Positions 268 to 59,291 of a stretch of DNA of 64,000 bases are shown piece after piece. This DNA is from Heterotrichella gracilis (taxonomy: Eukaryota; Sar; Xanthophyceae; Tribonematales; Xanthonemataceae). The stretch spans positions 1 through 64,000 of the forward strand of contig JAULBX010019079.1 in the NCBI GenBank assembly GCA_032358255.1, given 5' to 3'. The position numbers and the translations under genes were made by a program. The notes beneath the pieces are model-generated. The model was not told where the DNA came from, did no database searches, and saw nothing but the letters and a program-made list of their open reading frames with translations. Position 1 is the first letter of the stretch. The number at the start of each line of letters is the position of its first letter.

Positions 268-495
268 CAAGCCCACCTCCAGCACTGTGAGCTTGCCCTG
301 TGCCAGCTGGGGGGACCCTACACCTTAAACCCTAATCCTACACCCTACAAAAAGCGCAGCGTCACCTCCAGCACTGTGAGCTTGCCCTGCGCCAGCTAGG
401 GGAACCCTACACCCAAACCCTACACCCTACACCCTACACCCATCAGCAGCCTCACCTCCAGCACTGTGAGCTCTCCCTGTGCCAGCTGGGGGAAC
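268..495 (-). repeat. Triplicated exon-end cassette with telomere-like spacers
   Basis: Three near-identical copies of about 40 nt lie at roughly 451-495, 361-405 and 270-315. Read on the minus strand, each has a CCCCCAG- or CCCCTAG-type acceptor, 30 in-frame nt encoding LAQG(E/K)LTVLE, and a GAG|GTG donor. The spacers are degenerate telomere-type sequence (variants of CCCTACACCCTAAACCC). Copy one is the end of the METTL exon; copies two and three could be skipped or spliced in without breaking the frame. Confidence 0.85.
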
Positions 496-589
496 TCGCG
501 CTCCAGGTAGTGTCGGTCCTTGAAGAAGCGGTCGGAGTTGCGGCGGTAGAACAACTCCCACCACCGCCCCGCGGTGGCCTCGTAGCGGG
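456..589 (-). CDS. METTL2/6/8-type tRNA methyltransferase, internal exon (partial gene)
   Basis: This is one internal exon on the minus strand. Its translation, WWELFYRRNSDRFFKDRHYL followed by EREFPQL, is the conserved N-terminal block of the METTL2/METTL6/METTL8 family. These SAM-dependent enzymes make 3-methylcytidine at position 32 of certain tRNAs. The exon runs from an acceptor (CGCAG, exon starts at 589) to a donor (GAG|GTGAGG, exon ends at 456). The SAM-binding glycine motif that should follow is not in the window, so the 3' part lies beyond the left edge. I could not identify the 5' exon to the right. The last 30 nt of the exon occur three times in tandem further left, each copy with its own AG and GT (see the repeat entry), so splicing here may be variable. 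Family assignment is sound; which paralogue it is remains open. Confidence 0.7.
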
Positions 590-18461: not shown

Positions 18462-18490
18462 CAGGGTATATATACCCTGTCTTGAGACAG
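18462..18490. repeat. Two overlapping perfect palindromes
   Basis: CAGGGTATATATACCCTG (18462-18479) is an 18-bp perfect palindrome. It shares its last three bases with CTGTCTTGAGACAG (18477-18490), a 6-bp stem with a 2-nt centre. Confidence 0.9.
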
Positions 18491-38189: not shown

Positions 38190-38264
38190 TCTGAGAGAGT
38201 GTGGCACTCCAACACTAGGCTTGCTGACGCCCGTTGTTCCGAACTTGCCAAACCACTGTGGACA

Positions 38265-38923: not shown

Positions 38924-40786
38924 GATTCCTGTGGAAGACCAACGCTGCCTCTAAGCCAAGAACAAGCCTCCTCTATGGCGGAGTAGGAGAGAGGATGCCT
39001 CCAGGAAACTGTGTTGTCGACGACTGACTTTCACCATGCCTAGATAGGCGGCAACTGGAACAGTTGTGGGCCGCTGGGGGCCAAGGCCTCCACTGCACCA
39101 GGCTGTATCGTGATTTCCATCCTCGCGTGGACTGGGGGTGGGAAGCAATAGGAGTGGGCAGAGCTGGGTTGTACAAGCAGAAACGCTCTGGCCACTCCTA
39201 CTACTACCACTCCCAGTCCTGGCTGGGATCAAGCCAGATATAGCCTAGTTCAGTGAAGGCGTTGGCCTCGAACGGCCTCCAACGGCACAGAACGGGTCTT
39301 AGCCGTGGGAACCTACCTGTTGAAGACCTTTGTAGACCGCACCGCCTCTCTCGCACTGAAGGCCACTCGTGCCAATTTTGTGCTGACCTGCATGACTGGC
39401 CTGATTCAGCACAGCAGCATTCAGCCAGATCCCACTCCATAAACCCATTGCGAGGGAGGACCCAAAAAGTGGCGACCACTGCTTCAACTGTTCCACCAGC
39501 ATGGCATTTGCTGTACTTTCTGAGCATGCAGGGTGAGGAGCAGCTGCCACAGCAGGGGGGCGCGGGGGGTATGCAGCAAGCAGCTGCAGGGGTGCTGACA
39601 GGAGCTACCTGAATGTGGACGAGGAGGAGGGGGGTGGGTGAAGGCACGGAGGTTGAGGGCATGGGGCCTGAGGAGGTGGATGGAGGAGGGCGGTGGGAAG
39701 GGGGTACAACAGCCCCCACTGGCAACACTGTTGGCAACAGCTTCAGCGTCGTCAGGACGAAGTGACTTTTTTTATGGCTGAGCATATAGTGACGTGCGAG
39801 GACATTCAGAATCAGACAGGGGCAGGGTTTTTAGCCGTGATTTAGGCATCACTGGTGGCCATGTGAATGGGTTATGCCATACAGACCAAGGCTCGTTGAG
39901 AACAATTTTCATACCGTAGCCACTTTACCAGTGGCGGTGGCTGCATTTAATCAGACGTGTTAGTTTGCAGTTGTCAAGCTTGAAGTATAGCACCTGGTTT
40001 CCGTGATATTACATCAACAGAGATTTGCAAAGCACAGCACCTTGTGGGTATTTTCCTGAGACCACATTCTTCTCCTGCTGCAAAGCGTTGCAAAGCACAC
40101 CAGCAGGACATTTTGTGCCAGATTGTTCGCCACTGTCCCAGAATTATTAGGAATAGTACTAGCTACTGGATAGTAGCCATGCCTAGCGGAATACAAGTAA
40201 ACATAACCAACCAGTCTGAGAAAGCCATTCCCATCCGTCATCGGCTTATTGCACGGTGCCGCAAAGTTTGAGATAGCCATGCCTAGCGCAGTACTATACG
40301 CTTCTAACCAGCAGATTGCAGCAGAATCCCTGCCAGGACAGTGTTCATGACAAGAATGGCCGCCCTTGAAGGAATTTCTTGCTTGTAAACTTGTTCACCA
40401 TATGATACATGCGTAGCCTAAAGCCAAGCCAGATGGCTGCCGTGTGACGAATCATGCCCCACGCGTCCAAACCACCCACAAAAACACCCAAGCCCAGCCT
40501 GCATCCTCCCACCCCTATGCCTACTAATAGTCCCGCCCCCGGCCATGCACAGCCACCAAACCCCACCCAAAACCCTAATGCCCAGCTCACTGCCGCCTTG
40601 GCCCTAAGCTGCCAGAGATGACACCACGGATGACTACAGTCATGAGGACCACATACATCAGACCCTGAAGACCTCCTGCAGCCTCTTCCCACGCTGCATC
40701 GCCCTCGCCCTGCACCTGCTGGCCAGACAGCCCTCAGGCGGCAGCCACACCCAACCCACCACCCTCGCACCCATCTCCCTCCACCC
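38924..40786. other. Gap with coding-like fragments but no coherent gene
   Basis: Two plus-strand open stretches look protein-like but lack starts. One at 39028-39243 includes CTRLYRDFHPRVDWGWEAI and SYYYHSQSW. One at about 39250-39440 includes LAVGTYLLKTFVDRTASLAL and ANFVLTCMTGLI. They may be remnants of a gene or the end of an unresolved one. From 39.45 to 40.6 kb nothing was seen except C-rich telomere-like ACCCAAAACCCTAATGCCC near 40564-40582. Confidence 0.4.
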
Positions 40787-40912
40787 TCAGCTGCCAGTGA
40801 TGACACTGCGGTTGACCGCTGTGATGAGCACCACGTACATCAGACCCCTGAAGGCCTCCTGCAGCCGCTTCCCCGCTGCTTCGCTCTCGCCCCGCACCTC
40901 CTGGGCAGACGC
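40608..40912 (-). repeat. Duplicated 3' coding end of the FAM114-like gene (about 120 nt)
   Basis: The last ~120 coding nt (about 40790-40912, including GLMYVVLITAVNRSVITGS and the stop) have a diverged copy at 40608-40730. The copy stays open in the same frame (GLMYVVLMTVVIRGVISGS) but has lost the stop, running a few codons further. C-rich telomere-like sequence lies just beyond. Confidence 0.85.
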
Positions 40913-43900
40913 CTCCGAGGCTGGCGTGAGCGCCACCGGCGGCGCGGCACCTGCGAAAGCCTCCTGCACCTCGCCGTGTGCCGCAATGTATGCCCCGCAC
41001 AGCGCCTCCAGGTCAGCCTGCATGTTGCGTGCCTGCACCCGCAGCATGGCGCCGGTGGCGGTGGGCTCCGCAGGCCATTGGATGCCTGCACAGCACAGGA
41101 AAGGAAATGGTTAGCATCTGTGGAATTGTGTCCCGAATGTGTGCCACTGAAGGGCACACAAGACAATAAGCCGTTGGCGACTGGGAATGTCTATCTGTTA
41201 TTTGTTTGTTTACAAGTGTAAGGCCACGCAATACCATTGGCTACCCACCGTGAGGTAATCAGATTCATTGGTTCAATATGATTGCTGAAACACAGCTGGT
41301 TGGGGCAAGGAGTGCAACAAAGGCTGTTAATCCAACTCGCAACAACTGACTTGGTGCATCAGTCACAGTAGTGTGACCTGGTCATGAATGCTTGTGAGTA
41401 AGCTGTTGCTGTTCATGCATAGGTCAGCGCGACTGGCTTCAGCTGCTGGCTATGCATGAGCAGCAACAGGATACGCACACAGCCTTCATGCATAGGTCAC
41501 ATGATTGTGACTGATGCACCAACATGTTTGTTACTGCTGCCACATATATCACGATGCACTTGCTGGCATGCCACAGATCTTGCAGCCACCATGCCAGCCC
41601 TCACCGTCATCCGCCGGCCGCCCGTATCTGAACTGCGCCGACACGCTCCTTCCCAGTGCCATCAGCCGCTCCATGCACAGGGAACACAGCTCGGCAGAGT
41701 GCTGCGCAAAGTCGCGGCGGACCTGCGCCAGAACAGATTCATGTTTAAAAATCGATATACAAAAAAAACATCTTTGCAATTTATATTTGACTATTTATTT
41801 GCCGAAGAAATTGCTTATTCTTTATTTAAAGAATGGCTTCCAAATCCAACTCAAGCTCATAACCAAGTCCTTGCAGTGAAATATAGCCAGCAACAAGCAT
41901 TATCACAGCATTTCAGGCATGCCAACGGGGTTTATCCACCCTTTATGACCCCACACCCCATGCCTTCCTGTAAATCACAAGCGCCAGACCCACATGTGCT
42001 GCGCAACCTGTTTAGGGCCCAAAAACTTACAAACCACAGCATAGGTTTCCAGGGTCGTGACCTACCTGCGCAAGGAGGGCGTCGCCGATGCTGGGCCCCA
42101 ATGCAGCCGGTTGGCTACTGGATCCCGGGGATGTCTGCGTATCCCCGTCGTCAAGGGCGGTGATTTCGAGGTCCGGCTGCGGCTCGCCCGCTTCCTGCCC
42201 CTGCACCTTTGAAGCCTCTGCCTTGACGGCTTTGACCAGGTCCCCAGCACGCACGATGCCTGCAACCGGATTTAAGGTTTAGGGTTCGGGAAAACCGATA
42301 GGATAGGAGAGGCCAGGTGCACACACTTGGTCACCCGACATGGTGCATTTGCCAGCAAGCCTGCATAGCCATGGTGAGAAACAGTGGCCCCTATGTACTC
42401 TGTAAGAGTACCTTCACCAGGGTATTGCGTTAAGAATTGAAAGATAAAGCTCCATCGCATGGTAGCCAAACTCTAGGCAGACAGCGGCGCAACCACGATT
42501 CTGTAAATCATGCCTTATGGGCCATGGCTCATGTGGAGTGCCAGCAACGCACCACGCCACGGCTGTGGTCATACCTGATCTGCACAGCTCCGCCAGCACC
42601 TGGTGGCCTCGCGCCACAGCGCTCGCATCCCCAGCCGCCCCCTGGCCGCTGGAGGATGCCACCATGGGCCCATCAGACTCCAGCGCATGCTGCAGTGACA
42701 CGCGGCAATGCACGGTCAGCATGGTGAACCATCTAGTCTAGTGCATGCGGCGTCAGCCTGGTTCATGCCAGCCGCCACACCCACGATTCAAACAGTTGCA
42801 ATCCTGATTCCCAAACGTGACCGGCTTGTTGCCATGAGAACCCCTGAAGGGGACACCACTCCTATCACAAATGTGCCCCAACACCACGGTTTGTAAAAAT
42901 CACACTTCTACTAAAAACCACACTTCTACTAGAAACCTGTCATGTGGTGGTAGATGCACGCTATCAGCATCTGCATACATACAAGCACACCCAATGCAGG
43001 GTATGCAACCCTCACTGCTGTCACCACTTACTGCGCCTGCTGTCACCACTTACTGCACGCACAACCAGGTCGTAGGTGCAAGGATCCAGCGCAGGGTTTG
43101 AGTTTAGGGACTTTCAGAGAACTTCAAGGTCCAACAGCGGCGCCAGCTGCATGAGCGTCTTTGTCCAGGTTAAGGGTTTGAGGATCATGCGTAGGGTTTG
43201 AATTTAGGGTTTGAAGCACCTCCAGGTCAAACAGGGGCGCCAGCTGCGTCAGCGTCTTGTCAAGGTGCGCCTTCTCCTCCTGCGACAGCTTGGACCGCAC
43301 CCTGTTGCAGATGCGTGCGCACTCATTGGACAACGACTCGAGCTCCTCATAGCTCGACTGCCCGCCATAGTTGTGGAAGAAACCCTCAAAAGAGGTGTCC
43401 TGGTCTAAAGCGGGGCCCTGCGCGCCGCCCCACCCGCTAGGGCCGCCCTCCAGGAACTCCACAGCCGCGCGGCCAAGGCTCTGCAACGGGGATGCAAAAA
43501 AGGTTATATCGATCTGACAATGGATTATCACTGTCAAAGCACGTTTTAAACCAAATTTGTATTTGTTTTCAAACTTTTCAAAAAAAAATTTATTATTTCA
43601 AAAAAGCATCTTTTGCAGCGGGGTGGCAGCGGCAGCGCTCAGTGGGGCGGAACGGGGTGGCAGCGCTTAGATAAGCTAGGATGGCGTTGTAAACTGTAAG
43701 TGCGATGGTGAAAGCAGTGGCAGCATGGTGGGCGAATGCGTTCCATGTCGGCACAGCCCTGCAGTGCCACAGAAAGGCACAGATGCAGATGCAGGTTGTG
43801 TGTGCCACAGTGTATGGGGTAGGATGTGACACAGTGTGTAGGTGGGGTGGGGTTGGAGACAGCAGCGGATGCAGGGGTGGGGTGGGGTGGCAACTTGGGC

Positions 43901-46040
43901 ACACGCAAGGTGATTGCGCTGACCTACCTCAAAGCTCAACTCTGCATGTGAAGCAAATGTCTTGGATGAAGCAGCAGCAGCAGCCAGCCCCCTGCAAGGA
44001 CCACCACAGTGATTGCCAAGATTGCCTGGTGCCTGATGGTGCAGCCCTTTGTCAGTATTTTACTGCAAAGAAAGAAGTCCACGAGATTGTACACGCACGC
44101 TGGCATGCTCAGCCTAGTTGCTTTAGTGACCCTTCGCAATTGTTTAAATTGTCTACCTCCCGCATGCTCATGCAAAGCAAACGCAGCCAGCAATGCAATG
44201 CAACGAACTGCAGGTGCCTTCCCTGCAGATGTCCCCACGCACAGCTTGCGCAACCTACTCCGATGCTGACCGCGAGCACCCTGAAGCCTATAACTTAAAC
44301 CCTCCCCCAATGCAGCGGACAGCGGTACCATAAACCCTGCAACCTACCCCGATGCCGAGGACAGCGGGTGCAGCCCCTGCACGTCTCGCATGCCCTCCTC
44401 GTACGTCACCGCAATCTCCTTGGCGGCCGCAGACGCCACCTCCTCCACCCGCTGCGCAAAGCTGTGTCCCACCGTGGTTGCGGTCTTGAACAGGCCCTTA
44501 AAGGTGTTCACGGCACCCAGGGCAAGCTGCTCCACCTGGTCATCGATGGCCTGCAGGCATTTTGTGTGGTTCTTGGGAGATAACTACAGTTCTCATTTGA
44601 GTTCATTCCCTGTACTGTGGTTGCTCCCAGGTGAAAGAGCATTGGCCACTGCGCAGGAGCTGAGCACCCACGCACATACAGCCCAACGCACCAACTGGTG
44701 TCAGCAATGACAGACTTTGTTTCGCTGTCATGTGATTAGCGTCACTGCATGCATTCCCCCGCCTCCCCCGCCTCCCCACAGTGGTTGCCTCACTGATAGC
44801 CAGGTGGCCAAGCCCACCGCCCTGGCCTATGATAAACAGCATGTGCACGCAGTGCACATCCCCCCACCCCCGCACACGCACCCTCATGCCGGTTTCAAAG
44901 TTTGTGTCGGGGCCCTGCAGCTTGGCCAGCACGTCCTCCCGTTTGCGCTCCTCATCAGGGTCCACAGGACCTGGCGCAGGCCGCTCCTGGGCTGTTGGCT
45001 GTGGTGGCCCAGCAGCCCCGCCCTCCCCCTCCCCTTCCTCCTCGCTCTCTGGCGCGTTCACCTCGTGCAGCACCTGTGTGGCGCATAGAATTTGGGGTTA
45101 AAGGTTTTCCAGGGGGCTGCTTGGTGGTGCAGGCCTCAGTGTGCAGTTCCTCACGTGAGGCACCACGAGCTAAGCAGTTTCTGCGTTACCAGTGTGAATC
45201 CACTTTGAATACTTAAGTGAGGGGAGGTGTGGGGCAGAACCTTCAAAGAATACTATTAGGGAGGGAGGGAGCCGTGCTGGGTAGGTGCGGGGGTCACGTT
45301 TGAATTGAACAAACTTGGCTGGAGAGCCATTAGGTCCTCACCTGCTGGAAGCTCTCAGTGAGCTCCTTCACGTCCTTCACAGCACCCACCGCGGCAGCCT
45401 GGATCTGCTTCCAGGCGCCCCACATACCCCACCCGCCCGCCTGCTGCCCCGGGGCTGACCCTGGGCTGCCCTCCTCGGCCTCAGCCTCAGAGTTAACCCC
45501 ACTGGGTCCAGCTTCTTCGTCAGCTGCAGCAAGCAGGGGTACGTGCTCCATCGCAGGCTCGGTGTCTGGTTGCACTGGCTGAGAGGGAGGCAAACGGTTC
45601 CTTGCGGGGCTGGGAGGTGGAGCAGCTGCCGGTGGAGCTTGGACAGGCTTTGGGAACCCTACTGGGGGAGCTAGGGACACTGGCGCGGCTGCGGGCTTGG
45701 CAGCTGGCGCTATCGCTGATTGGGTTGGTGCGGCCACAGGCTTGGGTGGCGCAGGTGGTGCGGCTGCTGTGGGGGCACTGGGTGGAGCCACTGGCTGAGG
45801 TATCTGTGGTATTTGTGCCTGGGGAGGTGCTGACTCAGCGTGTGTGCCCACCTCCTCGCTGGTGTTGGGGGACTCGGAGGCTGAGATAACGCCATCTGAC
45901 TCGTCACCGATGTCAGCCCAGGAGTCGAGCTCCTCTGGGGTAGGGTCTTCCTCGTCGAGGTCGTCTGGGACGTCGTTCCCAAAGTCGAGGTCACTGTTGG
46001 TGTCTAAGTCCACGTCTTGCAGCTGACTGGCTGAGGCCAT
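40787..46040 (-). CDS. FAM114 (DUF719)-like protein
   Basis: Minus-strand exons in coding order: 46040-45342, 45073-44882, 44550-44348, microexon 44280-44259, 43480-43220, 42689-42575, 42259-42066, 41722-41605 and 41085-40787, about 700 aa. Every junction is in phase only if the 22-nt microexon is included. The first exon is acidic, then Pro/Ala-rich, and ends GWGMWGAWKQIQAAAVGAVK, as in FAM114A1/A2. The central exon matches the family core: FHNYGGQSSYEELESLSNEC, then ICNRVRSKLSQEEKAHLDK. The C-terminus is helical with a hydrophobic end. FAM114 proteins are cytoplasmic, reported as Golgi/Rab2-related in animals; the role in algae is unknown. Exon 7 has an alternative donor 15 nt further on (CATG|GTGGCT) in the same phase. 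Several introns carry copies of neighbouring exon ends. Confidence 0.8.
41741..41880 (+). other. AT-rich open stretch with organelle-like codons inside an intron (possible organelle DNA insert)
   Basis: Inside intron 7 of the FAM114-like gene, on the opposite strand, is a ~140-nt block far richer in A and T than its surroundings. It is open over its whole length and starts with ATG (MFKNRYTKKTSLQFIFDYLF, then AEEIAYSLFKEWLPNP). Nearly all codons end in A or T, as in algal chloroplast or mitochondrial genes. I could not name the gene. A nuclear copy of organelle DNA is the simplest reading, but chance cannot be excluded. Confidence 0.4.
43122..43265 (-). repeat. Duplicated end of FAM114-like exon 5
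   Basis: The end of the exon encoding LTQLAPLFDLE (43218-43262) has a diverged copy at about 43122-43165. Between them lie TTAAGGGTTTGAGG and GTAGGGTTTGAATTTAGGG. Confidence 0.88.
44252..44385 (-). repeat. Duplicated end of FAM114-like exon 3
   Basis: The block CAACCTAC(T/C)CCGATGC(T/C)GA occurs at 44250-44270 and 44341-44360 (plus-strand view), with the spacers CTTAAACCCTCCCCC and CATAAACCCTG between them. Each copy contains a GTAGGTTG donor on the minus strand. Confidence 0.88.
44259..44280 (-). CDS. 22-nt microexon derived from a duplicated exon end
   Basis: Without it, exon 3 (ending in phase 2 at 44348) cannot be read into exon 5 (starting in phase 0 at 43480). This segment has a GGCTTCAG acceptor and a GGA|GTAGGT donor. 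Its 22 nt restore the frame exactly, adding VLAVSIG-type residues. It lies inside a diverged copy of the end of exon 3. The exact use needs transcript evidence. Confidence 0.55.
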
Positions 46041-47048: not shown

Positions 47049-50000
47049 ATGATGGCATCCTTCCAGGCGTTCACCGCCGAGACAGTGCTTGAGCAGCTGC
47101 CAGGGAAACGGGTCGAGTCTGTTGAGCTATGGCAGGATACCCTAATAGTAGGTCTCAACGAAGGCACCCTCCTGCTCGTGAAGCCCAGCAGCGGCAGCAC
47201 CACATGGCAGGTGGTCCAAACTTTTCGAGCGTTTGGGAGGAAAAAGGTCACGCAGCTGTTGGCGATAGACCACAGGAAACTGCTTTTCAGCCTATCAGAG
47301 GACGGCGTGAACGCCCATCACCTGCCCAAGGTGGCACTGCACTGCCAGGCAGGGCGGAGTGCCTATGCGAGCCGGTTTGCATGGGACGATGACCGAGCCA
47401 TGCTGTGCGTGGCAGTCAGGAAGAAGCTCATGGTGTTCCACTACGACAGCAAGGAGTTTGTGGCTCTCAAGGAGTTCGCCATCTCCGACGCAGCGGTTGC
47501 ACTGAGCTGGGCGGGGGACAGTGTGTGTGTGGCGACGAGGAGAGAGTGAGTGCACATGCATGCATATGACACGCTTTCTTGGAACGCTGCCAAGCTGAGT
47601 TGCAAGCCCAAAAGCATTTGCCCGTTTTCATGATGGATGCATCCCAAGGTCAGGCGGGAATTTTGTATACGTCATGCCATGCCTGGGCATGCAACCGGCA
47701 TTCCCGCTGTCGCTGTGTGCCCATGCCATGCTGATCATGCCCAGCCGTCCACCTCGCATCCACCCAGCTCACCCTTGCGTAGGTATTCCCTGGTGCACGC
47801 CAACACGGGCGCAGTCACCGAGGTGTGCCTAGCTGGCAAGACAGGCACACCGAGCATCACACCGCTCAGCACTGGGGAGCTGCTAGTATCCAAGGACGCC
47901 ATCGGCCTTTTCCTAGGTAAAAATACATATCCACATGCCACCACACATTCTAATTTCTAATCATATATAATGATTGCTTTATTATCGCATTGCGGCTACG
48001 CATCGCCTGCAGCGGCATCGCCAACCTTTGGCGCACTTTCCCTGCGCTGCATTTTGCTATGTGTACCCCTGCAATGCACCCAAATTTTATGCACAATATG
48101 CCTCCAATGCACCATCAGCGCCACTGCGCCAGCCCTGCATCCATGCATCCATGCAAGCAACAAAGGAAGGACATTCAAAGGGGCAGCAACACCGTTGCCA
48201 TGCATCCATGCATGGCCCTCCTTCACAGTACAACACTGCAGCCATCGCATGCCGCATGCCGCAGGTCCTGAGGGGCGCCTCAGTCGCAAGCTGGGACTGA
48301 ACTGGAGCGACTCCCCCGTGGCCATTGCCTATTCCGCCCCCTACGCCATCGCACTGCTGCCAAATTTCGCAGAGGTGAGCCATGCTCCTGCCACAAGGCC
48401 CAGGGATAGAGACGTTATGTCCTGGTTGAATTGCATGTTGCTCGGTGATGCACATGCGCCGGACCGCCATGTGGGTGCATGGCATGCTGTCTGTTTCCTG
48501 GTTGATACTGTGATGTTGTTCAAAATTGTTCATGCTGATGGACCGCCGTGGATCATGGGTCATGGACCAATGAGTGGTTCTCATGCGCAACATTACCCTA
48601 AACCCTTGCCTCCACATGCGCACATGTCTATTCTTTGCAACCATTCAGACATCGATCACCAGTGGCCCCGGCTGGCACCTCACCACTTTAAACAACCTAT
48701 CACATTGGTCATCCCATAGCAAGCACCCTTTCTACCATCCATGGGTGCCATTTTGCAGGTGCGGTCCGTGGGTCGCAACGCGGTGCAGGGGGTGGCTCAG
48801 ATGCTGCCGCTCAGGGAGGCTGCACTTGCCAGCGCATCAGTGGGTGAGGATGGGAGCCTGTTTGTGGCGGCGCCTGAGCCAGCCACCATCTGGTAGGTGC
48901 ATGAATGGTTCTAGGATGGCGCGAGCGGCGGGCCCTGCCTTGGGTCACCAATGAATGCCTTACACATTCAGGGGATGTACAGAACATGTCAGTATGTTCT
49001 GTACTGCACCCATCTTACCGGGCTGCTTGGGGCTGCTTCGGTCCTGTTGAGGCGTTTTTTTAAAATTAAGGGCTTCGTTTTCTGTATGCGCACCTGTGGT
49101 TTTGCAAGTGCTTGGGATCAGCCAAGCGTTTGGCACCATAAGCGTTTCACAATTTAGGGGTTTGACCTTTGGTGAAAAGGTCAGGATGGCACTGCATGTA
49201 CGTGCTGCCCCATACAATTGCCTGTGCGGCCGCTCTTTGTGGACTGCAGGCCGGTTCACTCACTCAGTAAGTATGCTCTAATCAGAAAACAGTACTTTCG
49301 TGTATGATCTTCTTGATATTTTTGTGATGTGTAGGTATGTGCGCCCTGTTGCCCTTGTGCAGCAGATTGAGGCCCTGGCAGGCATCAGTGAGTTCCAGGA
49401 GGGGCTCAACCTCACGGCGCTGCTGCCGCCCAGCCAGGTAACCCTAAGCTTTAAACCCTAGACCCTAACAGGTATATTAAACCCTAAACAACCGCTCAAC
49501 CTTTCTGCGCTGTGCCGTCCAGCCAGGTAACTAAAAGCGTGGTTCTTTATGTAACTCATGGTATACAAGGCTCCCTTTGGTGGTTCTCCCTATTAATTGC
49601 AAATAGTAGTAATATCTTAAAATAGGTGACAATTTTATGTATATCCAGCTGTTTCCCCCTTGCAGGATGCCCAGGCGCGCCACCTGCAGGCCTCCCTCAA
49701 CCTGCGCTACGGGTACCACCTGTTCCAGCAGGGAGAGTATGAGGATGCCATGGCGCAAATGAGCATGAGTGCCTACGCGTCCCCTCTGCTGTTCCTCAGG
49801 CTCTTCCCCTCGCTGGCGCCGCAAACCCTAGCCAAGGGTTTGGCGCTGCCGGACGCAGGTGGGTGGTTTGCTGGGGCATGTGGTGGCGCAGATGGTGCTA
49901 TACCAGGGCTTAGGGTTTAGAGTTTAGGGACCAGTGTTAACTACATGTCACTAGTAGCGGACATGACAATAGTTCATCCTTGAGCGGTGCTTCATCGTGC

Positions 50001-53000
50001 GTCATTTGCCACTCCGTTCCGCCACGTGGAATGCTTGTGTGGGACCAGTGCGGCAGATCACTATCCGCGACCCCCCATGCCCTAGCCACAGGTATCATCA
50101 CATGCGGTTGACAATCTCCTCGTCAAGAGGGTTTTGACACTTTGGAATGTCGTACATCCCTCTACAGACTCCTGGCCATGGAACGCATGAATGTCAATAA
50201 GTGCATTCCTCCTGTACTCACCCTCGCCCTTCCCTGTGCCCCTCCAGCCAAGGACCTCCCCGAGGTCTCCCCGCCCCCCGAGGAAGACTACCCCCTTGCA
50301 GTCTCCATCCTCCTGCCCTACCTGCTCAGCTACCGCAGCAGGATTGCAGCAGCCAATGACAGCGCCAGCACAGACGCCGAATTGGCTGCAGAGCTAAGGG
50401 AAGCTAGCATAAAGGAACGCAGCCGATCCATGTCGGTGCGATCCGCCAAATCGAGCCCGAATCGGGGAACGCAACCCACTGATGTGGCGGCGCATGTGGA
50501 TCAGCTGGCGGGCGAGTCAGCGGCCCGTTTGCTGCCAGCTGGCGCGCCGTTGGTGGAGGAGGGGCGGGCAGGGGATTCAGCTGCTGATGGGGCGCAAGGG
50601 GGGAAGTCGCAAGGTGAATTGTTAGGGGAGGAACAGGGAGGGTCGCCTGTTGCGTCCACGTCAGCCTTCGAGGGCATGGCACAGGGGGCTGGAGTTTCCT
50701 CCCCGCAGGTGGCGGCTCAATCCTCCCCACATGCGCACCCCATGCAAGGGGAGGGCGACATAGGGGAGGGGCAAGGGGAGGGGCCTGCGGCGGCGGCTCA
50801 GCCGGAGCCTGGCACTGCCTCCCGGTGGGATGTTGGGGAGCTGTCATTGGTTGAGCGGCAGCGCCTGGCTGTGCTCATTGACACTGCCATACTCAAGGTA
50901 GGTAGATGCCACGCCAGGTGGTGCGATTGAGCGGCGGATATGTTTGGTTGTAGACAGGAACAGTTTTTAAGGTTGCACAATGTATCATGCGAGCAGTCTC
51001 TGAAAGAAATTTCCAATCAGCATGATGGCAATAGGTGGTCAGTATCATGCCTTTCCTTTCACTTGAGGGGGGAGAAAGTTAATTAAAGAGTAAGTATGTA
51101 AATGGGACTGACTTTCACCCTGCAGGTTATGTTGGACATGAGCGACAGCGGGGCGCTGCTGCGGTATGTGCAGCGGCCCAATGCGGTGGACCTGGCCGAG
51201 GGGGAAAAGACGCTCAAGGAAAAGGGGAGGTACTCTGAGCTGGTGGCGCTGTATGCACAGCACGCCAGGCACGAGGCCGCTCTGGACGTGCTGCATGCGC
51301 TTTCGCAGGGTCCAGAGAAGCTGCCTGTGCCGCCACAAGGTAGGGTTTTGGGGGTTTTCTGGGGCCTGTGCTCTTTGCGGTTGAAGTACATGGTAGCAGT
51401 GATGACTTGTAAATAATTCTTTGGTGGCAGTTGATTAAATGGCCCATGGGGGGGTAAGGTTTAGGCGCTGATCGCGGTACAGTACAGTTTGGTGGCATAT
51501 GATCATTTAGTGACAACTGTTTAAAGGCAGTTGATCAATGGCTAAAGGTGGGGTGGGATGCAGGTGCTGCCACCGACCTGCGTGGCATGCCTGGCGTGTG
51601 GGCTGCTGTGAAGTACATTGTGGCCATGGGTGCACACCAGGAGGGGCTCATCAGGAGGCACTGCAGGTGAGGGTGTGGCGGCAGGGGCGGAATGGAAGTT
51701 AGGGGAAAGGGGGGAAACACCATAGTCAAGGTTTGGCGCGTTGGAATGATGTTTACCAGGTGCCAGGTGTCAGCGACACAATGAGCTTTCAAGTCCACTA
51801 TTTCCTTCCTCTTACGGGGTGGATATCTACGTGGACAATTTGGAGGTCGTTGTCTTGCGGCCAATTGTCTCTCGCTGGTGGGCATGCATTGACTCTGTGT
51901 GCAATACTGCTTGTCAAGGGAGCTTCTCATTCACCGCGTAAATTTTCCTGCCCCTTTTTGCTAGGTGGATACTGCAAAACGACCCTGAAGCCGGCCTGGA
52001 AATGTTTGTCCAAATGTCGCCCCCCCTGGACCCTGCCAAGGTCCTCTCCATGCTCACCACAAATGCACCCCATCTGTCGGCCCCCTACCTGGAAAACGCG
52101 CTGAAGATGGGTGCCGCCCCGCCAGCCAAGTACCACCACGAGCTGGTACTCATATACCTCCAGCAGGTGTGTAGGGTTCCGTAAACTCTACACCCTCCGG
52201 CAGATTATTTGGATTCAACCCTGAACCTGAATCTGTAAACCCTTCAGCACGAGCTGGTGCTCATCTACCTCCAGCTGGCCAAAGGGATTTAACCCCAATC
52301 CCTTTAGCAGGTTGAATGATTTTGGCCTTGTTTTGTTTGCCTTCCTTCCAATGCCTGGCGCGCCTATTTCCTCCTGTGTCTTGTTGTACTACCCCTTCTG
52401 CTTCCTCCTGCGTCTTGTTATACTATCCTCCTGCTCTATATTGTGGGTGGGCCTCGTTCCTTCATCTCCTGCATCTCTTTCTCAGGTGTTGGATGAGATG
52501 AAACGTGGAGGGGAGGACAACCTAAGCAAGGGTTCCAGCACACAGGCTGCTGCCAATGGCAACCATGAGGAGCCACATGCGCTGGCACGGCTGAAAGAGC
52601 TGGTACGGATCTACCTAAATTGGTTGAAAGAGTTGGTATACAACCCTTAATAAGACAATATCCTTAATCAGCTGACAGGCGCTGAAAACCCTTCCCAGCA
52701 GCATTTGAGCCACATTTTCCTTCTGCCCCCCCAGATCACCATGTAAGCGACGTACCTTGCGGCACACAGAACCTGGACCCTAAACCCTGGATCTTAAACA
52801 ACATTTCCCCATGCTCCCCACAGATCACCACCTCACCACACATAGACGCCGAGCGCCTGCTGCAAGTGGTGCCAGCCAACAGACTCCTAGAGGTAGGCTG
52901 TTAAGGGTTGACGATTTAGGGCGTTAGGGTCTGCCTTAACCCTAAACAGACTCCGAAAGGTAGGCTCCAGCTGAAGTGGCATTGTGTGACTGGCCAATGA

Positions 53001-55143
53001 TTCGCCTTGGCCAACCTGTTGCCCCTGTGACCTCATGGGCTTGGTACTACCATATACAATCAAACAAACAGACAGGCATTCCCAACCGTCATTGGCTTAC
53101 CGTAGTGCCCTGTTGTATTACCACATACAGAGGGCTATTTTGTTGCAAGTCATTGTTGATTCATTGCATTGCACCATGCTGATGTTTGGCATATCCCGCT
53201 TGCATCCTTTGCTTCTCGTTGGAATTGCACCAGCTGAGGTAAATCAATACTGGAAAAACATACAAACAAATCGGCAAAAGTGCAGTTACAGCATTCTTGC
53301 CTCTGAAACCAGCCAATGCAATTGTTCTGACCACAGCATTTCACCGTCACATATACGGATGGCGGTGCACCACCACCGCCACTACCATCACCACCACCGC
53401 CATTACCACTACCACAACCACAACCTCCACCACCACCACACCCGCAGGTGCGCGCACTGCTCCTCGAGCGCCTGGCTAGGCACCGCGAGGCCCTCCACCT
53501 GTACGCCACCCGCATGGACCGACCAGACCTGGCGGAAGGGTACTGCGATAGGGTTTATAAAGGGGAGGTGGCGCGGGCGGCAGAGGAGCGGGGGGCGGTG
53601 GGGGCTGGGCCCAGTGGGCGGGTGCATGTGGGTGGTGGCGGGAGGGGTGGGGGCTGGCTGGAGGCGCCTGCGCAGGCTTCGGATGTGTACCTAATGCTCA
53701 TGCAGGTGGGTGTGCAGATATTAATGAATAATGATGGTTTAATCAACATGAATGTTGATATTTGTCTCCTTTTCTGCCATGGTCTGCGCCTTAGTGTGCC
53801 ATGGTTTTATAATTAATGGGGGGGATGCATGTGCGCTGTGAACAGAGTGGCTGCCTTAAGTGCATGCATGGCGAGAAGCATCACCCACTGACATGCCAGG
53901 TAGATCACAAACATGAGAACAATACAGAATCCTTCTTGCAGCCTTGGTAGCAGTGCATGAAACAAGGTGCCGACCTGCATGCAGGAGTACTTACAAACCC
54001 TAAACCCTAACCCTAAACCCTAAACCTGATGCAGGAGTACTTGCAGCAGGCGGCTGCCGCAGCAGCAAGCGCCCAACCCACCTCCGCCCCCCAACCCCCC
54101 ACTCCTGTGGGTGCCAGTGGGAGGCCGCCAGGGGAGGAACAGCTGCTGGCGCTGCTCCGGAGGAAGCAAGGGGTCATAAACCCCATCAAAGCGCTGGGGA
54201 TGCTGCCAGACGAGGTGGGGATTGCCAGCAGCACACCAGGGGCGTTCCAGGGTAGTCCTTTAACCTGGTTTTGGGTCAAAGAAAGTACAGTGGTTTAGAA
54301 AAAGTGCATAAAAACCGCACCCATGGCTGTGAACCTGCCAGCTCGCAGAAGGTTAAGTCTATGCTTGGGGATCTTGCCTATGCTTCAATTTATACTATCA
54401 TGATGACACAAAAAGCAGGCAGATGTGTGCGCACCTTCACAACAGATTGCACCTCCTGCGCCAACCCTTATGTGCGGTTTCCCCCTGGTTCCCAATCCCT
54501 GCAATCCCTCTCACCGCAGGTCCCGGTGTTGGGCTTGCGGGAGTTCCTGGAGGGCGGCCTGCGCCACGTGGCTGACGTGGCGCACAGCTCTGCGCTGGTG
54601 AAGTCCCTGAGGCGGGTTGAGCACCAGCAGCAGAAGCACGCGCTGGTGCGCGCAAAGCAGCGGTGCGTGAGGGGGTGGAGGGGGCATGATCCACCGGTGG
54701 TGGGGGGGGGTGGGGGGGGTGATGGCTAAAAGCCTCATTCCGCATGCGCCTTGTGATTGGTTGTCCCACAGCAGCGGTTCATGGGGGGGGGGGAGGGGTG
54801 TGAGGGGGCAAGCACCATCGGTGGGGACTGGGGGGTAGGGGCGGTAAACCCGGTGGGCATGCGCCAATTGTGGTGGGTAGTTACGGGTGGTGTTTTGGAA
54901 CCCATGGATAAAAGCCTCAATCCATGTGCACCATGTGATTTGTTGCCCCCACAGCAGCTTACCCCTACCATTACCACCCCCTGCAGGTGCGTGGTGGTGA
55001 CGTCTGAGCGCGCCTGCTGCCTGTGCCACAAGGGGGTGGGCACAACAGTGCTGGTGGCATACCCCAACGGCAACCTGGCGCACTACTCGTGCTTCAAGCG
55101 GGCGGAGGTGGCGGCGGGAGGGGCGGGAGCCACTCGCCGCTGA
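47049..55143 (+). CDS. VPS39: VPS39/Vam6-like HOPS complex subunit
   Basis: Sixteen exons: 47049-47545, 47783-47916, 48265-48374, 48759-48892, 49335-49437, 49666-49858, 50248-50897, 51126-51339, 51564-51666, 51965-52166, 52486-52602, 52824-52892, 53448-53705, 54035-54214, 54520-54662 and 54987-55143. All phases fit, about 1087 aa. VPS39 is part of HOPS, which tethers late endosomes to the vacuole or lysosome for fusion. The N-terminal CNH (beta-propeller) domain covers about residues 10-300 (FTAETVLEQLPGKRVESVEL, TLIVGLNEGTLLLVKP). Clathrin-type helical repeats follow (LQASLNLRYGYHLFQQGEYE; KGRYSELVALYAQHARHEAA). The end has LPDEVPVLGLREFLEGGLRH and the Cys/His motif CCLCHKG...HYSCFKR. Exon 7 inserts ~130 residues of Ser/Gly/Glu-rich low-complexity sequence. 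Two adjacent ATGs (47049, 47052) are possible starts. Several introns contain telomere-like repeats and duplicated exon ends. Confidence 0.93.
49398..49527 (+). repeat. Duplicated end of VPS39 exon 5
   Basis: The exon end GCTCAACCTCACGGCGCTGC to CAGCCAG|GTAACC (to 49437) recurs diverged at about 49488-49527, again followed by GTAACT. AAACCCTAGACCCTAAC and AAACCCTAAAC separate the copies. Confidence 0.9.
52130..52285 (+). repeat. Duplicated end of VPS39 exon 10
   Basis: CACGAGCTGGT(A/G)CTCAT(A/C)TACCTCCAG occurs at the exon end (52138-52163) and at 52250-52275. Degenerate telomere-type sequence lies between. The copy has a TTCAG acceptor-like start but no donor. Confidence 0.9.
52588..52642 (+). 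repeat. Duplicated end of VPS39 exon 11
   Basis: The exon end CTGAAAGAGCTG|GTACGG (to 52602) is copied as TTGAAAGAGTTG|GTATAC about 30 nt downstream, keeping a GT. Confidence 0.75.
52728..52980 (+). repeat. Duplicated borders on both sides of VPS39 exon 12
   Basis: Upstream, CAGATCACCA occurs at 52733 and again at the true acceptor (52821), with GACCCTAAACCCTGGATCTTAAAC between. Downstream, CAGACTCC..GAG|GTAGGCT at the exon end (52880-52898) recurs at 52946-52970, with TTAGGGCGTTAGGG and TAACCCTAAAC between. Confidence 0.8.
53342..53447 (+). repeat. CCA/CAC-rich microsatellite in VPS39 intron 12
   Basis: Imperfect (CCA)n/(CAC)n tract running directly into the exon 13 acceptor at 53445-53447. 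Confidence 0.85.
53982..54050 (+). repeat. Duplicated start of VPS39 exon 14 around a telomere-like array
   Basis: GCAGGAGTACTT occurs at 53983 and again at the true exon start (54031). Between them is the cleanest telomere-type array in the window, about four CCCTAAA-class units (53997-54026). Confidence 0.92.
54664..54962 (+). repeat. Diverged tandem duplication in VPS39 intron 15
   Basis: A unit of about 180 nt ending in (A/G)TAAAAGCCTCA...TTG..CCCACAGCAGC occurs near 54723-54777 and 54908-54958. The region also has long G runs. Both copies end in an acceptor-like CCACAGCAG. Confidence 0.7.
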
Positions 55144-57158
55144 CTGTGCATGCCGCGCCAGTGGGGTGTGTGCTCTTTCAGGGTTAGTTGCCACGCGGGC
55201 AACGCATTAGATTTCCCTTTTGTCTACTTTCTCTTTATTGGTGAACTCCAATATATTATATTTGTGGTGGTGATAATCACACACCCCTCGCGGGGCAGAT
55301 GGTTGACAACCTTCTTATTGGCGTGCAGCAATTGCGCACCAGCCTGACGTGGGTGGTTTTTGTATCTTTCCATCGCCCACATCTAGCCACAACCCACCAC
55401 GCTGGATTATCACACATGAATGCATGGAATCAATGACTCATTTTGACTCATTTGAAATGATGCCAAGGCATTAAATTTTATGGATGTGAAGTCCAGTGTA
55501 CATGGCCTGGCCTGGCTGTCAGCGTGGTGTAATTGATTTCTAAGCGAATTGAAATGGTGTAATTACAGTCACTGTGTGACGCCCCATTGGCAATCTTCCA
55601 AGGTTTAACCTTGGAAGGGCTAGCTCATGTAACTTACATGAGCTAGCCCTGTATAGCTCAGCACCCGGTGGGCCGTGCAACTGGTCACCACGGCTGAGCC
55701 ATCATGGTACTGAATCTGACAGATAATGGATATCAGTACCCCAATCAAATTGTATTAACAGCAATTGCTGTGCTGCTGTACCGCGGTCCTATTGAGAAGG
55801 CTTCCATCAGTGATGATCAAAAGTCATAACACACTGTATACGAAAATCAGACATTGTCAACGCTCAGCGGTGTTGGTAATTGGGTGTTGCAGCAGTGAGG
55901 CCTCCACGTGATTACAGCCCTTCAACCAGCCTGGCTGGCAGTGATTCACTTCAGAGTGCCTCTGCCTATTGATTGCAAAATTTACGGACACCACCTTGGC
56001 CAGTGGCTCTAATACCGGTTGCAATGTGCATGTACAGTACAGACTAGCCGAGTTAGTCACAATGTGTCATATTGCCTACAAATTTAAATCCATCCTGGGT
56101 ACTACTAGCATAATGCAGCAATGTTATCTCCCACAGAGTGCTACATTGGAATGGCCAAGAGTTCCTGGGTCACTGTAAAAACCACATCCAATGGAGATGC
56201 ATTGGAAACACAACCTTGGAAGGAAGGCTACTTGCTCTATCACTGATTAGGCTACCAGCAATGCGAAAATGGACCAGCCTATAGCAATGATCAACTCATG
56301 AACTTTAATAGCTTACTAAGGGTATATTATCCAGTCCTGGATCACCAAACCCAACCAATATCACAACAGTTTACCAATATACCAACAGTCGTATGTCTGT
56401 TTAAAACTGTACACTTTATTTTTTACGGACAAGTAATTGTGCTGCTCCTGATAGAATGCCAAGCACTGTAACACTCGCAATCACAAGCCCTGCCTGGAAT
56501 GAATTATGTACATGTCTATACAGCATTTTCTGTTTTCTTTTGTAAACGTTAAATGTCAGTAAATGTAGCACACTGTACTTTCAACAAATAATACATGCAC
56601 TGTGCAAACCACCATGAGAAAATGGGCTATAATGTCGGCGGGTGTGCCAGCATGCCATGCAGTATGGGTACACAACTACACTACATTCTAGAAGCCGGCC
56701 TCCACCTCTTGATTTGCTGCGGGCTGGCTGCGCCCCACACCAATCCTGCCAAGGCTCCCCAGTACATCACTTGGTGCTGACATCTACATGCCAAAGATGG
56801 TCATGGCAGCTGAGTGCTCCACCGCATAGCTTGGAGCCATGGGTCCACTCCGTGTTGCCAGTTGATGGCTAGCCATGCTAGCACTGGGTACGCTGTGTGT
56901 GGCGGGGCTGCAAAGGCCGTCTGCACTTGACGCTTGATTTTGCACAGCCTGGTGCATAGTGTACATTTTTCTTGGTAGAGGGAAACTCTCCATACATTCA
57001 CCACCTGATTCTCCCTGCTGTTGATCTCTGGTTATACACGCCCTGGGAGCTGGGTTCCTATTGTTTTATTGCGTTATTCCTGAAGCTGACCATCCTTCCA
57101 AGCAACACCCTCCAGGGATAGCAGGGCTCCAGGCGCCAACCGATTCCATGCGCATGCC
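55144..57158. other. Convergent intergenic region with paired palindromes
   Basis: No exon was recognised. It separates the 3' ends of VPS39 (+) and the F-box gene (-), is AT-richer than the coding regions, and carries the perfect palindromes at 55595-55650. Confidence 0.5.
55595..55650. repeat. Two overlapping perfect palindromes with 1-nt centres
   Basis: The first (55595-55617) has 11-bp arms CTTCCAAGGTT/AACCTTGGAAG around a T. The second (55616-55650) has 17-bp arms AGGGCTAGCTCATGTAA/TTACATGAGCTAGCCCT around a C. They share two bases. Both could form cruciforms or RNA hairpins. Confidence 0.95.
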
Positions 57159-59291
57159 TCATGCTGTTTCTCCATCCGACCAGTAGGCGGTTGCGCTGAT
57201 GTCGTGGCCGCGCCACTCAGCCTTCTCCTGATCACTCAAACGCCTGACGCCGCCCACAAACCTGCACCCAGGCAGAGCAAACCCTTGTTAGGGTATAATA
57301 CAACAAAAAGCTAACCTGGCTTCAAAGCTGGAAAGCAGATACTTACTTACTTACAACAAAAAAGCGCACAATCTTCCAATGCTTCTGGGATCACCGTACC
57401 ACATACTCTCTCAATTCCTGGGTGGAGGTATGCAATAGTAGAGGTGTCGTGCATTTAATGCTCTTTAGGACCCACACCCACAGTGCCTTGCAGACTAATC
57501 TCACGATGAACCATGCAGCACTTCTTGAAGACAGGACTGCATGGCATAACCATCGGCGCATGCATGGCATGATGTGGCATAACCATCGGCGCGTGCATGC
57601 CACTTTGGGCACCCATGATGACCCCGCCCTTTGCCCTCACCCAAAAGAGAAATCCCCGTTGACCACCGCCTCCTTCCCCGGGTGCAGCGGGGCGCGCACA
57701 GTTCGCCACGCCGAGGCGGGTGGGTACTGCTTGAAGGCCAGGGTTATTGAGTCCTGGGTGATTGCCTGCACGCAGCCAAACCACCAGCCAAACGGGTGGC
57801 TCTTCCTCCCCTTCCACTGCACCTCCACCTCCTCCCCTACCTCCAGCCCATCCAGGTTGCCGCTGCAGGGAAGGGGCCGGTCAGAAAGTGGGTGGTGCAG
57901 CGGACAGTGTTTCACAAAGGAAGAGCCATTCTAGGAGCCTGAGTATGTGTAGCGCTTCGTGGCAAGCGTGTGCATGTAGGGTTTAGGGTACAGGACCTCA
58001 GCCCTAGCCTCGATACATCAAGGTCAACCTTTGGAATGGTGAAACCCCACTTTTTACATGTCCAGTAGAGATTTCATTGTGTAGCTACAAATTAGGGTTC
58101 AGGACCTAAACCCTAACCTTGATACATCAAGGTCAACCGTTGGCATGGTGAAACGCTGGATTTTATACGTTCAAGTGTAAAGCATGCCTGCAGCAGGTGC
58201 CTTCAACCCTACCTACCCACCTGTACACGCTGTTGTATTGGCTGCCTGGTGGGGGCAGGCGGATCCGTTCCACAGTCAAACCACGCTCGATGACAGCTGC
58301 CATACGACCCATGGGCAGGTACCTGCAGAACACCCCTGGCTTTCAGTCGAGCACAGGTGATGCAGCTTTGCGCTTGGGAGTAGTGCGGCAGTAGGCAACC
58401 AATATGTGTGGAACACCTACCTCGCCGTGAACGTTGGGCTGGCATCCGGTGAAGCACCAATTTCCAGGCTGACCATTGAGTCATATGCAGACAGGACGAA
58501 ATCTGCAGACAAGCAGCCCCTTGTCAGCAATTGTCATCAACTCTGAAAAGGTGGGTGAGTATATAATTCAGGTGTTTTAAACAAGCAGGGCTGGGCATTT
58601 TCCCTGACCTTCTGCATCGTTGTCTAGCTCCCTATTGTAGATTTGGGTGCTGAACTCCTTTCCCGACACCAGGGAGGCATAGCGTTGCTTCCAAGAGTGC
58701 TTGGCCCACCACTCGGGGTTGGCGTGCTCAAGGATGCTGAGCAGGCGTGCCCCAAACCGGTTGGTGAACTTGTCCTCCCATAGCCAGTCAGAGGAAGCCA
58801 ACTGGTTGAGCGACCTCGAGCAACACGCAACTGCGCGCCATTCGCACCAGGTTACACCTTGCATAATAACTACAATAATAGCAGGGCGTGTGCTGATATC
58901 CTACCTTCCAGCTGGTGTATCGTAAGCAACAATTTATGGAAGTCAAGATATCTCATGCCCTCGAGGAATGCATTTGGGCATGCAAACGAACCGACAGGAG
59001 AAAAGCAAGGCACGCGCAGAGGTCGATACTCTGAAAAACACGGTGCAGAAGGTCAACGCTTCCAGATTGCAACCTGACAGACAACCGTAGCCTTTTGTGT
59101 TGTACTGGGCAGTTACCTAGGGCCAGCTCCGGGGCGGAAAGCTGTCGTAGTATGTCTTCGAGCAGGCAGTCGGGCAACGTCTCCAGCTTCAATCTGCACT
59201 GTTCTTTCGAGCTGACTGTCGCAGCTGTGCGGGGACCATGGCTACGTCTCGACAGAACGCTTCGGTGGAAACATGCCACGCTCACGCCCAT
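57159..59291 (-). CDS. F-box protein of the At2g26850/At3g12350 type
   Basis: Six minus-strand exons in coding order: 59291-59117, 58830-58609, 58502-58421, 58322-58221, 57862-57641 and 57261-57159, all phases consistent, 301 aa. The F-box (about residues 33-80, LETLPDCLLEDILRQLSAPE, then CCSRSLNQLASSDWLWEDKF) should bind SKP1 in an SCF ubiquitin ligase. The C-terminal half matches a plant F-box subfamily: VGEEVEVQWKGRKSHPFGWW, LAFKQYPPASAWRTV, and FVGGVRRLSDQEKAEWRG near the end. The target is unknown. The start at 59291 is one of several in-frame Met codons. It is divergently paired with the AK6 gene about 550 bp away. Intron 4 contains a telomere-like block within a tandem duplication. Confidence 0.87.
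57970..58185 (-). repeat. Tandem duplication with telomere-like sequence in an F-box gene intron
   Basis: About 85 nt starting CAGGACCT.A.CCCTA.CCT.GATACATCAAGGTCAAC (about 57988-58065) recurs at about 58102-58178. TAGGGTTTAGGGT precedes the first copy and TTAGGGTTC the second. No exon is involved. Confidence 0.85.

Follow-up and report, generated by a model that had tools for sequence, protein, structure and literature searches.

How did telomere-type repeats come to lie between duplicated exon ends in Heterotrichella gracilis? Within the window, the whole stretch of 64,000 nucleotides analysed here, the original prediction had pointed to short duplications beside their originals, often separated by degenerate CCCTAAA/TTTAGGG. 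Alignment re-found the duplications at the predicted sites, with telomere DNA between the copies at ten of them, while five duplications hold no block of score ≥11 inside (Table 1). Blocks were called at a telomere score ≥14, with weaker ones noted down to a score of about 11; at the higher threshold, the window contains 16 telomere-like blocks, and the reversed, uncomplemented pattern gives 0. An Rfam scan of the window returned nothing at the gathering threshold. The protein from the exons between 51965 and 54214, a candidate VPS39-like product, matched no Pfam family and is therefore left unnamed.

Table 1 Duplicated segments and telomere-like blocks in the window. Where no exon-side segment is named, the two columns give the two copies in order of position. 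E2, 2-oxoacid dehydrogenase acyltransferase.
Feature	Exon-side or first segment	Copy	Telomere-like block	Strand	Remark
Three-copy site 224..495, exon end and donor (exon 456-641)	444-495	265-316, 356-405 (decayed, in intron)	224-249, 315-347, 403-441 (CCCTAAA)	-	315-347 and 403-441 are inner blocks
E2 gene, exon start	23995-24052	24134-24185 (intron)	24124-24136 (short, TTTAGGG)	-	block score 13, below threshold 14
E2 gene, 94-nt exon end and donor	24636-24729	24425-24518		-	94% identical; no block between
E2 gene, exon end (exon 25178-25452)	25186-25231	25072-25114 (intron)	25136-25182 (CCCTAAA)	-	
Mitochondrial-carrier gene, exon start and acceptor	30065-30111	30183-30229 (intron)	30115-30185	-	sense strand C-rich
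Site 43081..43266, exon end and donor	43215-43258	43118-43161 (intron)	43168-43212 (between), 43093-43109 (outside)	-	
20-nt copies	44250-44269	44339-44358	44278-44303 (weak, between)	-	
Exon end and donor CAG/GTAAC	49404-49439	49494-49528 (intron)	49440-49489	+	
Exon end	52134-52167	52245-52278 (intron)	52179-52196, 52217-52243 (weak)	+	block scores 11.4 and 13.8
Block before predicted exon start 52824			52772-52799 (CCCTAAA)	+	24 nt upstream of exon start; acceptor copy upstream of block weak (flank score 12.5)
Exon end and donor	52878-52899	52945-52966 (intron)	52900-52930 (G-rich), 52934-52947 (C-rich)	+	
Acceptor and exon start	54029-54042	53979-53992 (acceptor copy)	53995-54026 (near-perfect CCCTAAA, between)	+	14 nt each
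Duplication without block between	40602-40690	40784-40873	40558-40578 (weak, outside)	-	
63-nt duplication, spacer without block	57983-58045	58092-58154		.	telomere-like stretches 57977-57994 and 58105-58116
Duplication	23586-23635	23810-23859			no block of score ≥11 between
Duplication	29869-29890	29913-29934			no block of score ≥11 between

The repeat unit of the interstitial blocks matches the genome's own telomere repeat, TTTAGGG: contigs C70, C140, C526, C609, C717 and C770 begin with 42-nt CCCTAAA arrays, at most 7 bases from the start. Genome-wide, TTTAGGGTTTAGGG occurs 2845 times in forward and 2784 times in reverse orientation, compared with 2 and 3 for the reversed control. In a Trebouxia genome, telomere repeats at internal positions were treated as evidence of misassembly (PMC12712428). 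The present blocks, short and degenerate, and their diverged copies do not look like the product of such an error, and assembly error is probably not their source.

Duplication and telomere DNA are linked, in the window and beyond it. We used two samples, one of 243 kb (C192 and C2:1-160000; 68 telomere-like blocks) and one of 71 loci chosen by TTTAGGGTTTAGGG alone (96 blocks). Local duplications with a score ≥16 and copies ≤600 nt apart numbered 50 on C192 and 169 on C2:1-160000, and one first-order resampling of each gave 0; 43 and 152 remained once pairs had been removed for low dinucleotide entropy or because telomere-like sequence filled more than half of the copies. In the first sample, a local sequence is repeated on both sides of 29/68 blocks, compared with 46/1323 random places, and in the second, 35/96 blocks are flanked by copies, compared with 1/2823 permuted flank pairs. 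The 29 flanked sites include one pair entered twice, and some of the 64 flanked blocks from both samples share one duplication (e.g. 265/444, L034, L094). We also ran the proposed comparison with telomere-free introns, in which 25/57 intron blocks were flanked as against 655/13119 position-matched places. Per intron, 22/47 block-bearing introns hold a flanked block, while in 21/252 telomere-free introns a duplication surrounds a fixed position at one or the other border. These counts, together with telomere DNA lying mostly inside the copy pairs, indicate that flank duplications are not equally common at introns without telomere repeats.

Around the 64 flanked blocks, the copies are direct duplications of the flank, 14–93 nt long (median 38 nt). 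The contents of the spacers were evaluated in 73 spaced duplications, obtained by merging overlapping pairs and retaining spacers of 15–300 nt. Telomere sequence makes up 17.1% of spacer bases, whereas windows of the same size beyond the copies hold 3.4% and 2.4%, and 17/26 telomere-bearing pairs have no telomere DNA outside. Both observations argue against an order of events in which telomere-like repeats pre-existed in introns as fragile sites, leading to later plain tandem duplication of a passive block along with the exon end. Such an order would fit the remaining 9/26 pairs, which do have telomere DNA outside, as well as the 89-nt period at 264-495 and the 97-nt period at 43081-43266, both of which include the block, the arrangement X-block-X-block-X at the multi-copy loci L034 and L035, and the near absence of a correlation between copy identity and repeat purity. 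From its period, the last step at 43081-43266 may have been a tandem duplication of block and exon end; as a general account, we consider prior residence of the repeats unlikely.

Telomere repeats are one common filler within a wider duplication process. In about two thirds of the spaced duplications (47/73), telomere DNA accounts for <10 nt of the spacer; the reversed telomere pattern, used as a control, reached ≥10 nt in 5/73 spacers. An intron-generating transposon (introner) would be expected to carry a conserved internal sequence besides the repeat; the one telomere-free spacer searched against the genome matched itself alone. An organelle origin of the AT-rich fillers was considered, and a psbA-type match in the assembly was not found; a tRNA-like tandem at C2:143849 yielded no tRNA.

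The duplications had been predicted to lie mostly at exon borders, which agrees with our home-made gene model predictions: in the C192 and C2 sample, the copy crosses a predicted exon border at 22/29 flanked sites (4.5 expected). The blocks themselves also cluster at predicted splice sites, with a 3.7-fold excess. Exons lay on both sides of 59/68 blocks in this sample and of 47/96 in the second. Part of this clustering might come from the gene models, since a telomere repeat puts stops into every one of the six frames and would end any predicted exon. Such a pull was seen, at 1.75-fold, in 27 intron windows with stops in all frames, 4 of which fell within 15 nt. We recounted the 164 blocks at GT/AG borders (14 overlap a predicted exon and 7 are without an exon), dropping 15 blocks at a non-GT/AG border, of which 7 are far from a predicted exon end and 8 are near one, as an artefact would have it. 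With both borders GT/AG, the clustering persisted, with 26/53 blocks no more than 15 nt from a predicted splice site compared with 7.2 expected (highest permutation 15), and 16/37 compared with 7.6 (highest permutation 13) in a second such count. Furthermore, the spliced adenylate kinase and E2 peptides align without gaps across their junctions, confirming these borders by homology, and splice-site duplicates are directly visible in the sequence. An origin of the clustering in the gene models is thus quite unlikely.

Blocks without a detected duplication show the same tendency in the first counts (12/33 near splice sites compared with 3.8 expected before the GT/AG filter; 11/29 compared with 3.4 after it, equal to the top of 500 permutations), while the second sample (10/28 compared with 5.1, GT/AG) lies inside the permutation range, as does a count restricted to exons ≥120 nt (6/31 compared with 2.1), a result that the gene-model artefact would also predict. 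Random breaks and fill-in do not by themselves explain the border hugging of duplication-free blocks.

Copies that keep AG or GT had been suggested to create or shift introns, and we found the creation of introns by tandem duplication carrying AG/GT to be exceedingly unlikely here. The copies cross a single exon border at 21/22 border-crossing sites, and the remaining one is more plausibly an acceptor-side case. This site, C2:17019-17147, resembled an AG/GT gain at first, but its left flank, taken in the spliced frame, does not look like coding sequence, and the ABC1-kinase frame downstream begins at the acceptor of the second copy; it was rejected as a new intron. A systematic search for duplications with the donor in one copy and the acceptor in the other, at the same column, whose splicing would restore the reading frame, gave 2 candidates, neither convincing.

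Both strands are used, as predicted, with 32 G-rich and 36 C-rich blocks on the sense strand (n=68) and 31 G-rich and 33 C-rich among the flanked blocks (n=64), yet this overall balance masks a strong dependence on the intron end. Within 45 nt of GT/AG borders, acceptor-side blocks are C-rich in 33/38 cases (5 G-rich), whereas donor-side blocks are G-rich in 34/53 (19 C-rich; Fisher p 1.3e-6 pooled, 0.0014 and 0.0008 in the samples alone); before the GT/AG filter, these counts were 34 C-rich and 5 G-rich at acceptors, and 37 G-rich and 23 C-rich at donors. Beyond 45 nt, the bias in the pooled data is slight or absent (11 C-rich and 10 G-rich blocks on the acceptor side, 6 C-rich and 10 G-rich on the donor side). 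The clustering of blocks at splice sites and the dependence of their strand on the intron end are new here.

A bias confined to the vicinity of splice sites is also what one would expect if the mutation were ordinary and scattered and the density at intron ends reflected retention, the blocks being sheltered from deletion or serving as branch point or pyrimidine tract. CTAA in block-bearing acceptors peaks 20–24 nt upstream, a spacing in line with retention, and CTRAY in block-free acceptors peaks 20–29 nt upstream. Two points weaken the branch-point claim: CTRAY is only weakly enriched in block-free acceptors (49/299 compared with 26/289 deep-intron windows), and CTAA is inherent to telomere repeats. 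The share of copies at borders rises from young to old (7/13, 20/33, 14/18), as retention would have it, although youngest and oldest do not differ significantly (p 0.25). Retention leaves the link with duplication itself unexplained, and for 21 blocks of the C192 and C2 sample the nearby exon end, at most 15 nt away, is on the donor side, where a branch point is unneeded. We regard retention as the source of the density as possible but doubtful.

The explanation that we favour, and hold to be probable, is that staggered breaks were repaired by fill-in, accompanied by the addition or capture of telomere repeats, with splicing acting as a filter thereafter. A break with staggered single-stranded overhangs would be filled in, so that X, the sequence of the overhang (median 38 nt), comes to flank the join on either side. 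Before or during joining, one 3' end would acquire telomere repeats T, either synthesised by telomerase or captured as a fragment, such that copies and block arise together. Splicing would then select: the exon-side copy would retain the splice site and reading frame, the other copy would decay within the intron, and T would persist in whichever orientation is compatible with splicing, mostly C-rich at acceptors, where CTAA would fall near branch-point distance without AG decoys. Several copies at one border would reflect repeated rounds. The genome encodes a TERT RNA-binding domain (matched on C626) and Ku (matched on C771 and C380); a search for STN1 gave no match in this genome, and likewise none in the control genomes.

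Fill-in of staggered breaks with addition or capture of telomere DNA is consistent with the data but unproven, and the timing of block relative to copy and priming by telomerase are likewise unproven. Copy identity correlates weakly or not at all with telomere purity (all 64 blocks, rho 0.25, p 0.05; first sample, rho 0.23, p 0.23; second sample, rho 0.01, p 0.96). In the youngest case, L057, exon end and donor copies are identical over 56/56 nt with telomere repeats between them, but the repeat is already imperfect, making purity a poor clock. As a proxy for priming, with many blocks degenerate, the gap was no tighter on the priming side (median 4.5 nt, compared with 3.5 nt on the other side; p 0.75). 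The same X-T-X' product would also arise without a staggered break, if a telomerase-extended 3' end at a broken fork re-invaded the sister chromatid slightly upstream. Copies of up to 93 nt and non-telomeric filler in spacers would suit such a template switch; the junctions lack its priming asymmetry, and no result separates it from fill-in, the end products being identical. We judge it very unlikely.

Tandem duplication through staggered lesions has parallels elsewhere. In rice, Vaughn and Bennetzen reportedly described patch-mediated tandem duplication in 2014, ascribing natural duplications to nearby nicks on opposite strands. We know of no link between that process and telomere DNA or exon ends.

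In mammalian cells, small tandem duplications arise when CST-Pol alpha fills in complementary 3' overhangs at induced breaks (PMC8355091). Like the present copies, they are direct duplications of tens of nucleotides; an origin at staggered breaks, through enzymes that also fill in telomeres, would be shared under the favoured explanation. The accessible portion of that paper does not describe telomere repeats between the copies. Mammalian interstitial telomeric sequences, inserted at double-strand breaks, resemble our blocks as short telomere repeats at internal sites; a minority carry target duplications, recognised via empty sites (6/130 rodent, 4/25 primate and 3/66 horse loci, plus 2 horse loci in combination; PMC2246262, PMC7215372). 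They differ from the blocks described here, of which 29/68 and 35/96 are duplicated, rates that are not like for like with the mammalian ones because they rest on flank alignment, and whose copies, with a median of 38 nt, are concentrated at splice sites. Direct repeats at intron borders have been attributed to break repair, one per intron end and 4–30 bp long (PMC11782384), whereas both copies here lie at one intron end, often with telomere DNA between them. Among the matches listed from the open-licence literature (titles and abstract starts), none described telomere repeats between duplicated exon ends.

Extrapolated from the two contigs (68 blocks, 29 flanked, 243 kb) to 68.5 Mb, the genome would contain ~19,000 blocks, ~8,000 of them flanked, and could thus preserve a natural record of repair events from which the length of the overhang, the filler and the outcome for splicing might be read. 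The association would bring together three subjects mostly treated separately, namely how telomeres are added to breaks, how short tandem duplications form and how intron ends evolve, and the donor/acceptor strand rule gives a clear prediction for splicing tests. Tentatively, telomere repeats may even act as ready-made splice signals: telomere-dependent break repair would copy exon ends into introns, and C-rich CCCTAAA would supply the surviving acceptor with branch point and pyrimidine tract, so that chromosome-end DNA would be rewriting intron ends at thousands of places.

In the genome searched (68.5 Mb in 903 contigs), TTTAGGGTTTAGGG was counted 5629 times, the two strands combined, and its reversed control 5 times. 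Six contigs carry 42-nt perfect CCCTAAA arrays within 7 bases of their starts, indicating that TTTAGGG is the real telomere repeat of this organism, a photosynthetic eukaryote as judged from 43 chlorophyll a/b-binding protein matches. For each telomere-like block, an often degenerate TTTAGGG/CCCTAAA stretch, the 150 nt on either side were aligned with telomere letters masked. In a first sample (contig C192, 83 kb, of which positions 1-64000 form the window, and C2:1-160000), a direct repeat scoring at least 14 flanked 29/68 blocks, compared with 46/1323 random places and 5/1338 permuted flank pairs. An independent second sample of 71 loci, chosen solely for the presence of TTTAGGGTTTAGGG and holding 96 blocks in 70 of them, gave 35 flanked blocks (permuted pairs, 1/2823), with at least one in 27 of the 71 loci.

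The original observation, that exon-end duplications are paired with telomere-type repeats, was borne out in the comparison it called for, with introns lacking such repeats: 25/57 intron blocks were flanked, versus 655/13119 places matched for intron end and for distance from it, in 252 telomere-repeat-free introns. Because these places draw repeatedly on the same introns, a per-intron count was also made, with one fixed place tested per border in the 252 introns, yielding 22/47 block-bearing versus 21/252 telomere-free introns (Fisher p = 1.9e-9). This real and dense association extends to at least seven contigs, namely C192, C2, C3, C4, C7, C8 and C9.

Pooled from both samples, the 64 flanked blocks, certain of which have a duplication in common, show copies of 14–93 nt (median 38), median spacer and block lengths of 64.5 and 33 nt, and near-even strand use (G-rich 31, C-rich 33). 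Telomere sequence makes up 17.1% of spacers, and 3.4% and 2.4% of equal-size windows outside the copies. Among 73 spaced duplications, telomere repeat of 10 nt or more is present in 26 spacers (random windows predict 3.2) and in 8 and 6 outside windows, while the reversed pattern occurs in 5 spacers; in 17 of these 26 pairs, telomere DNA is absent outside the copies. The remaining 47 have other fillers, part of them AT-rich, so that the process is a wider one in which telomere DNA often serves as the filler. The assembly gave no psbA-type match, and the plastid genome may therefore be missing from it. Among other repeats, a tandem 27-mer includes a motif similar to a tRNA T arm; no tRNA was detected at this site by ARAGORN.

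Duplications, fillers and other repeats at individual loci
Feature	Location	Description
L057, clearest young case		two identical 56-nt copies of exon end and GTGAGG donor, imperfect telomere repeats between
L024, adenylate kinase locus	C2:121116-121600	exon end and donor, three copies in series, no telomere repeats between; start of next exon has upstream copy, telomere repeats between
AT-rich filler	C192:77551-77583	flanked by GC-rich copies
AT-rich filler	C192:69874-69942	flanked by GC-rich copies
AT-rich filler	C2:29878-29931	flanked by GC-rich copies
Minisatellite-like array	C192:78427-79160	unit about 100 nt
Minisatellite-like array	C2:128073-128560	unit 174 nt
Tandem 27-mer	C2:143849-143930	includes GGTTCGATCCC
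Triplet array	window 53368-53439	CAC-type, 24 copies

The pattern fits staggered breaks, at which overhangs would be filled in and telomere DNA added, and known break repair, in a variant form, is the most probable mechanism. In mammalian cells, CST-Pol alpha is described as filling complementary 3' overhangs, giving small tandem duplications (PMC8355091), and in mammals breaks are described as receiving telomeric repeats, with target duplication at a minority of loci (PMC2246262, PMC7215372). TERT and Ku domains are encoded in the genome. Counting against the staggered-break proposal, almost no ageing correlation was seen, nor any priming-side signature.

Exons were taken from a self-trained gene model, which was consistent with homology wherever checked. 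An adenylate kinase peptide, spliced over an 860-nt intron holding several exon-end copies, aligned with 1zak (E 2.6e-63), with no gap where the exons join; a 2-oxoacid dehydrogenase acyltransferase (E2) peptide with two introns removed aligned with a pyruvate dehydrogenase acetyltransferase (E 9e-67); and Pfam assigned ADK, Mito_carr, 2-oxoacid_dh and ABC1 among five peptides, with no family for the other one. A copy spans the predicted exon border in 22/29 flanked sites (random shift 4.5, maximum 10 in 300), as it does in 27/47 telomere-free spaced duplications. The suggestion that such duplications create introns found no support, since copies cross a single border each, bar one apparent two-border crossing that proved on inspection to be an acceptor-side case.

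Intron blocks also cluster at splice sites: for 29/59, a predicted exon end is no more than 15 nt away (7.7 expected if each block is placed at random in its own intron; highest permutation 16). Where no duplication was detected, 12/33 blocks lie this close (3.8 expected; highest 9), an effect that weakens to 6/31 with only exons of at least 120 nt (2.1 expected; highest 7). With both borders GT/AG, 26/53 blocks were near in the first sample and 16/37 in the second (7.2 and 7.6 expected; highest 15 and 13); for blocks lacking a detected duplication the counts were 11/29 and 10/28 (3.4 and 5.1 expected; highest 11 each), making their clustering suggestive only. The clustering is possibly in part a gene-model artefact; 27 non-telomere windows stopping all six frames show a 1.75-fold near-border excess, and telomere blocks 3.7-fold. 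The border share was 7/13 in young and 14/18 in old copies (p = 0.25), and a lower share in young copies would fit retention at borders, not targeting alone.

Finally, a new strand rule holds at intron ends. Within 45 nt of a GT/AG border, the sense strand of acceptor-side blocks is C-rich in 33 cases and G-rich in 5, and that of donor-side blocks G-rich in 34 and C-rich in 19 (Fisher p = 1.3e-6 pooled; 0.0014 and 0.0008 per sample), with little bias farther away in the pooled data (11 C-rich and 10 G-rich on the acceptor side; 6 C-rich and 10 G-rich on the donor side). C-rich acceptor-side blocks end 5–24 nt upstream of the exon in 27/34 cases. CTAA, which telomere repeats inherently include, peaks 20–24 nt upstream in block-bearing acceptors; in block-free acceptors CTRAY peaks at 20–29 nt but is only weakly enriched (49/299, versus 26/289 deep-intron windows). 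Were an acceptor copied together with some 10 nt of its intron, the acceptor that survives would be separated from its former branch point; the C-rich strand of the telomere repeat could then furnish a replacement, free of TTTAG decoys. Alternatively, telomerase might extend the exon-side 3' end; this likewise predicts the mirror symmetry of near blocks, of which 71 are oriented away from the exon and 28 towards it. The weaker donor bias and its fading with distance lean towards selection by splicing as the source of the strand rule, without being decisive.
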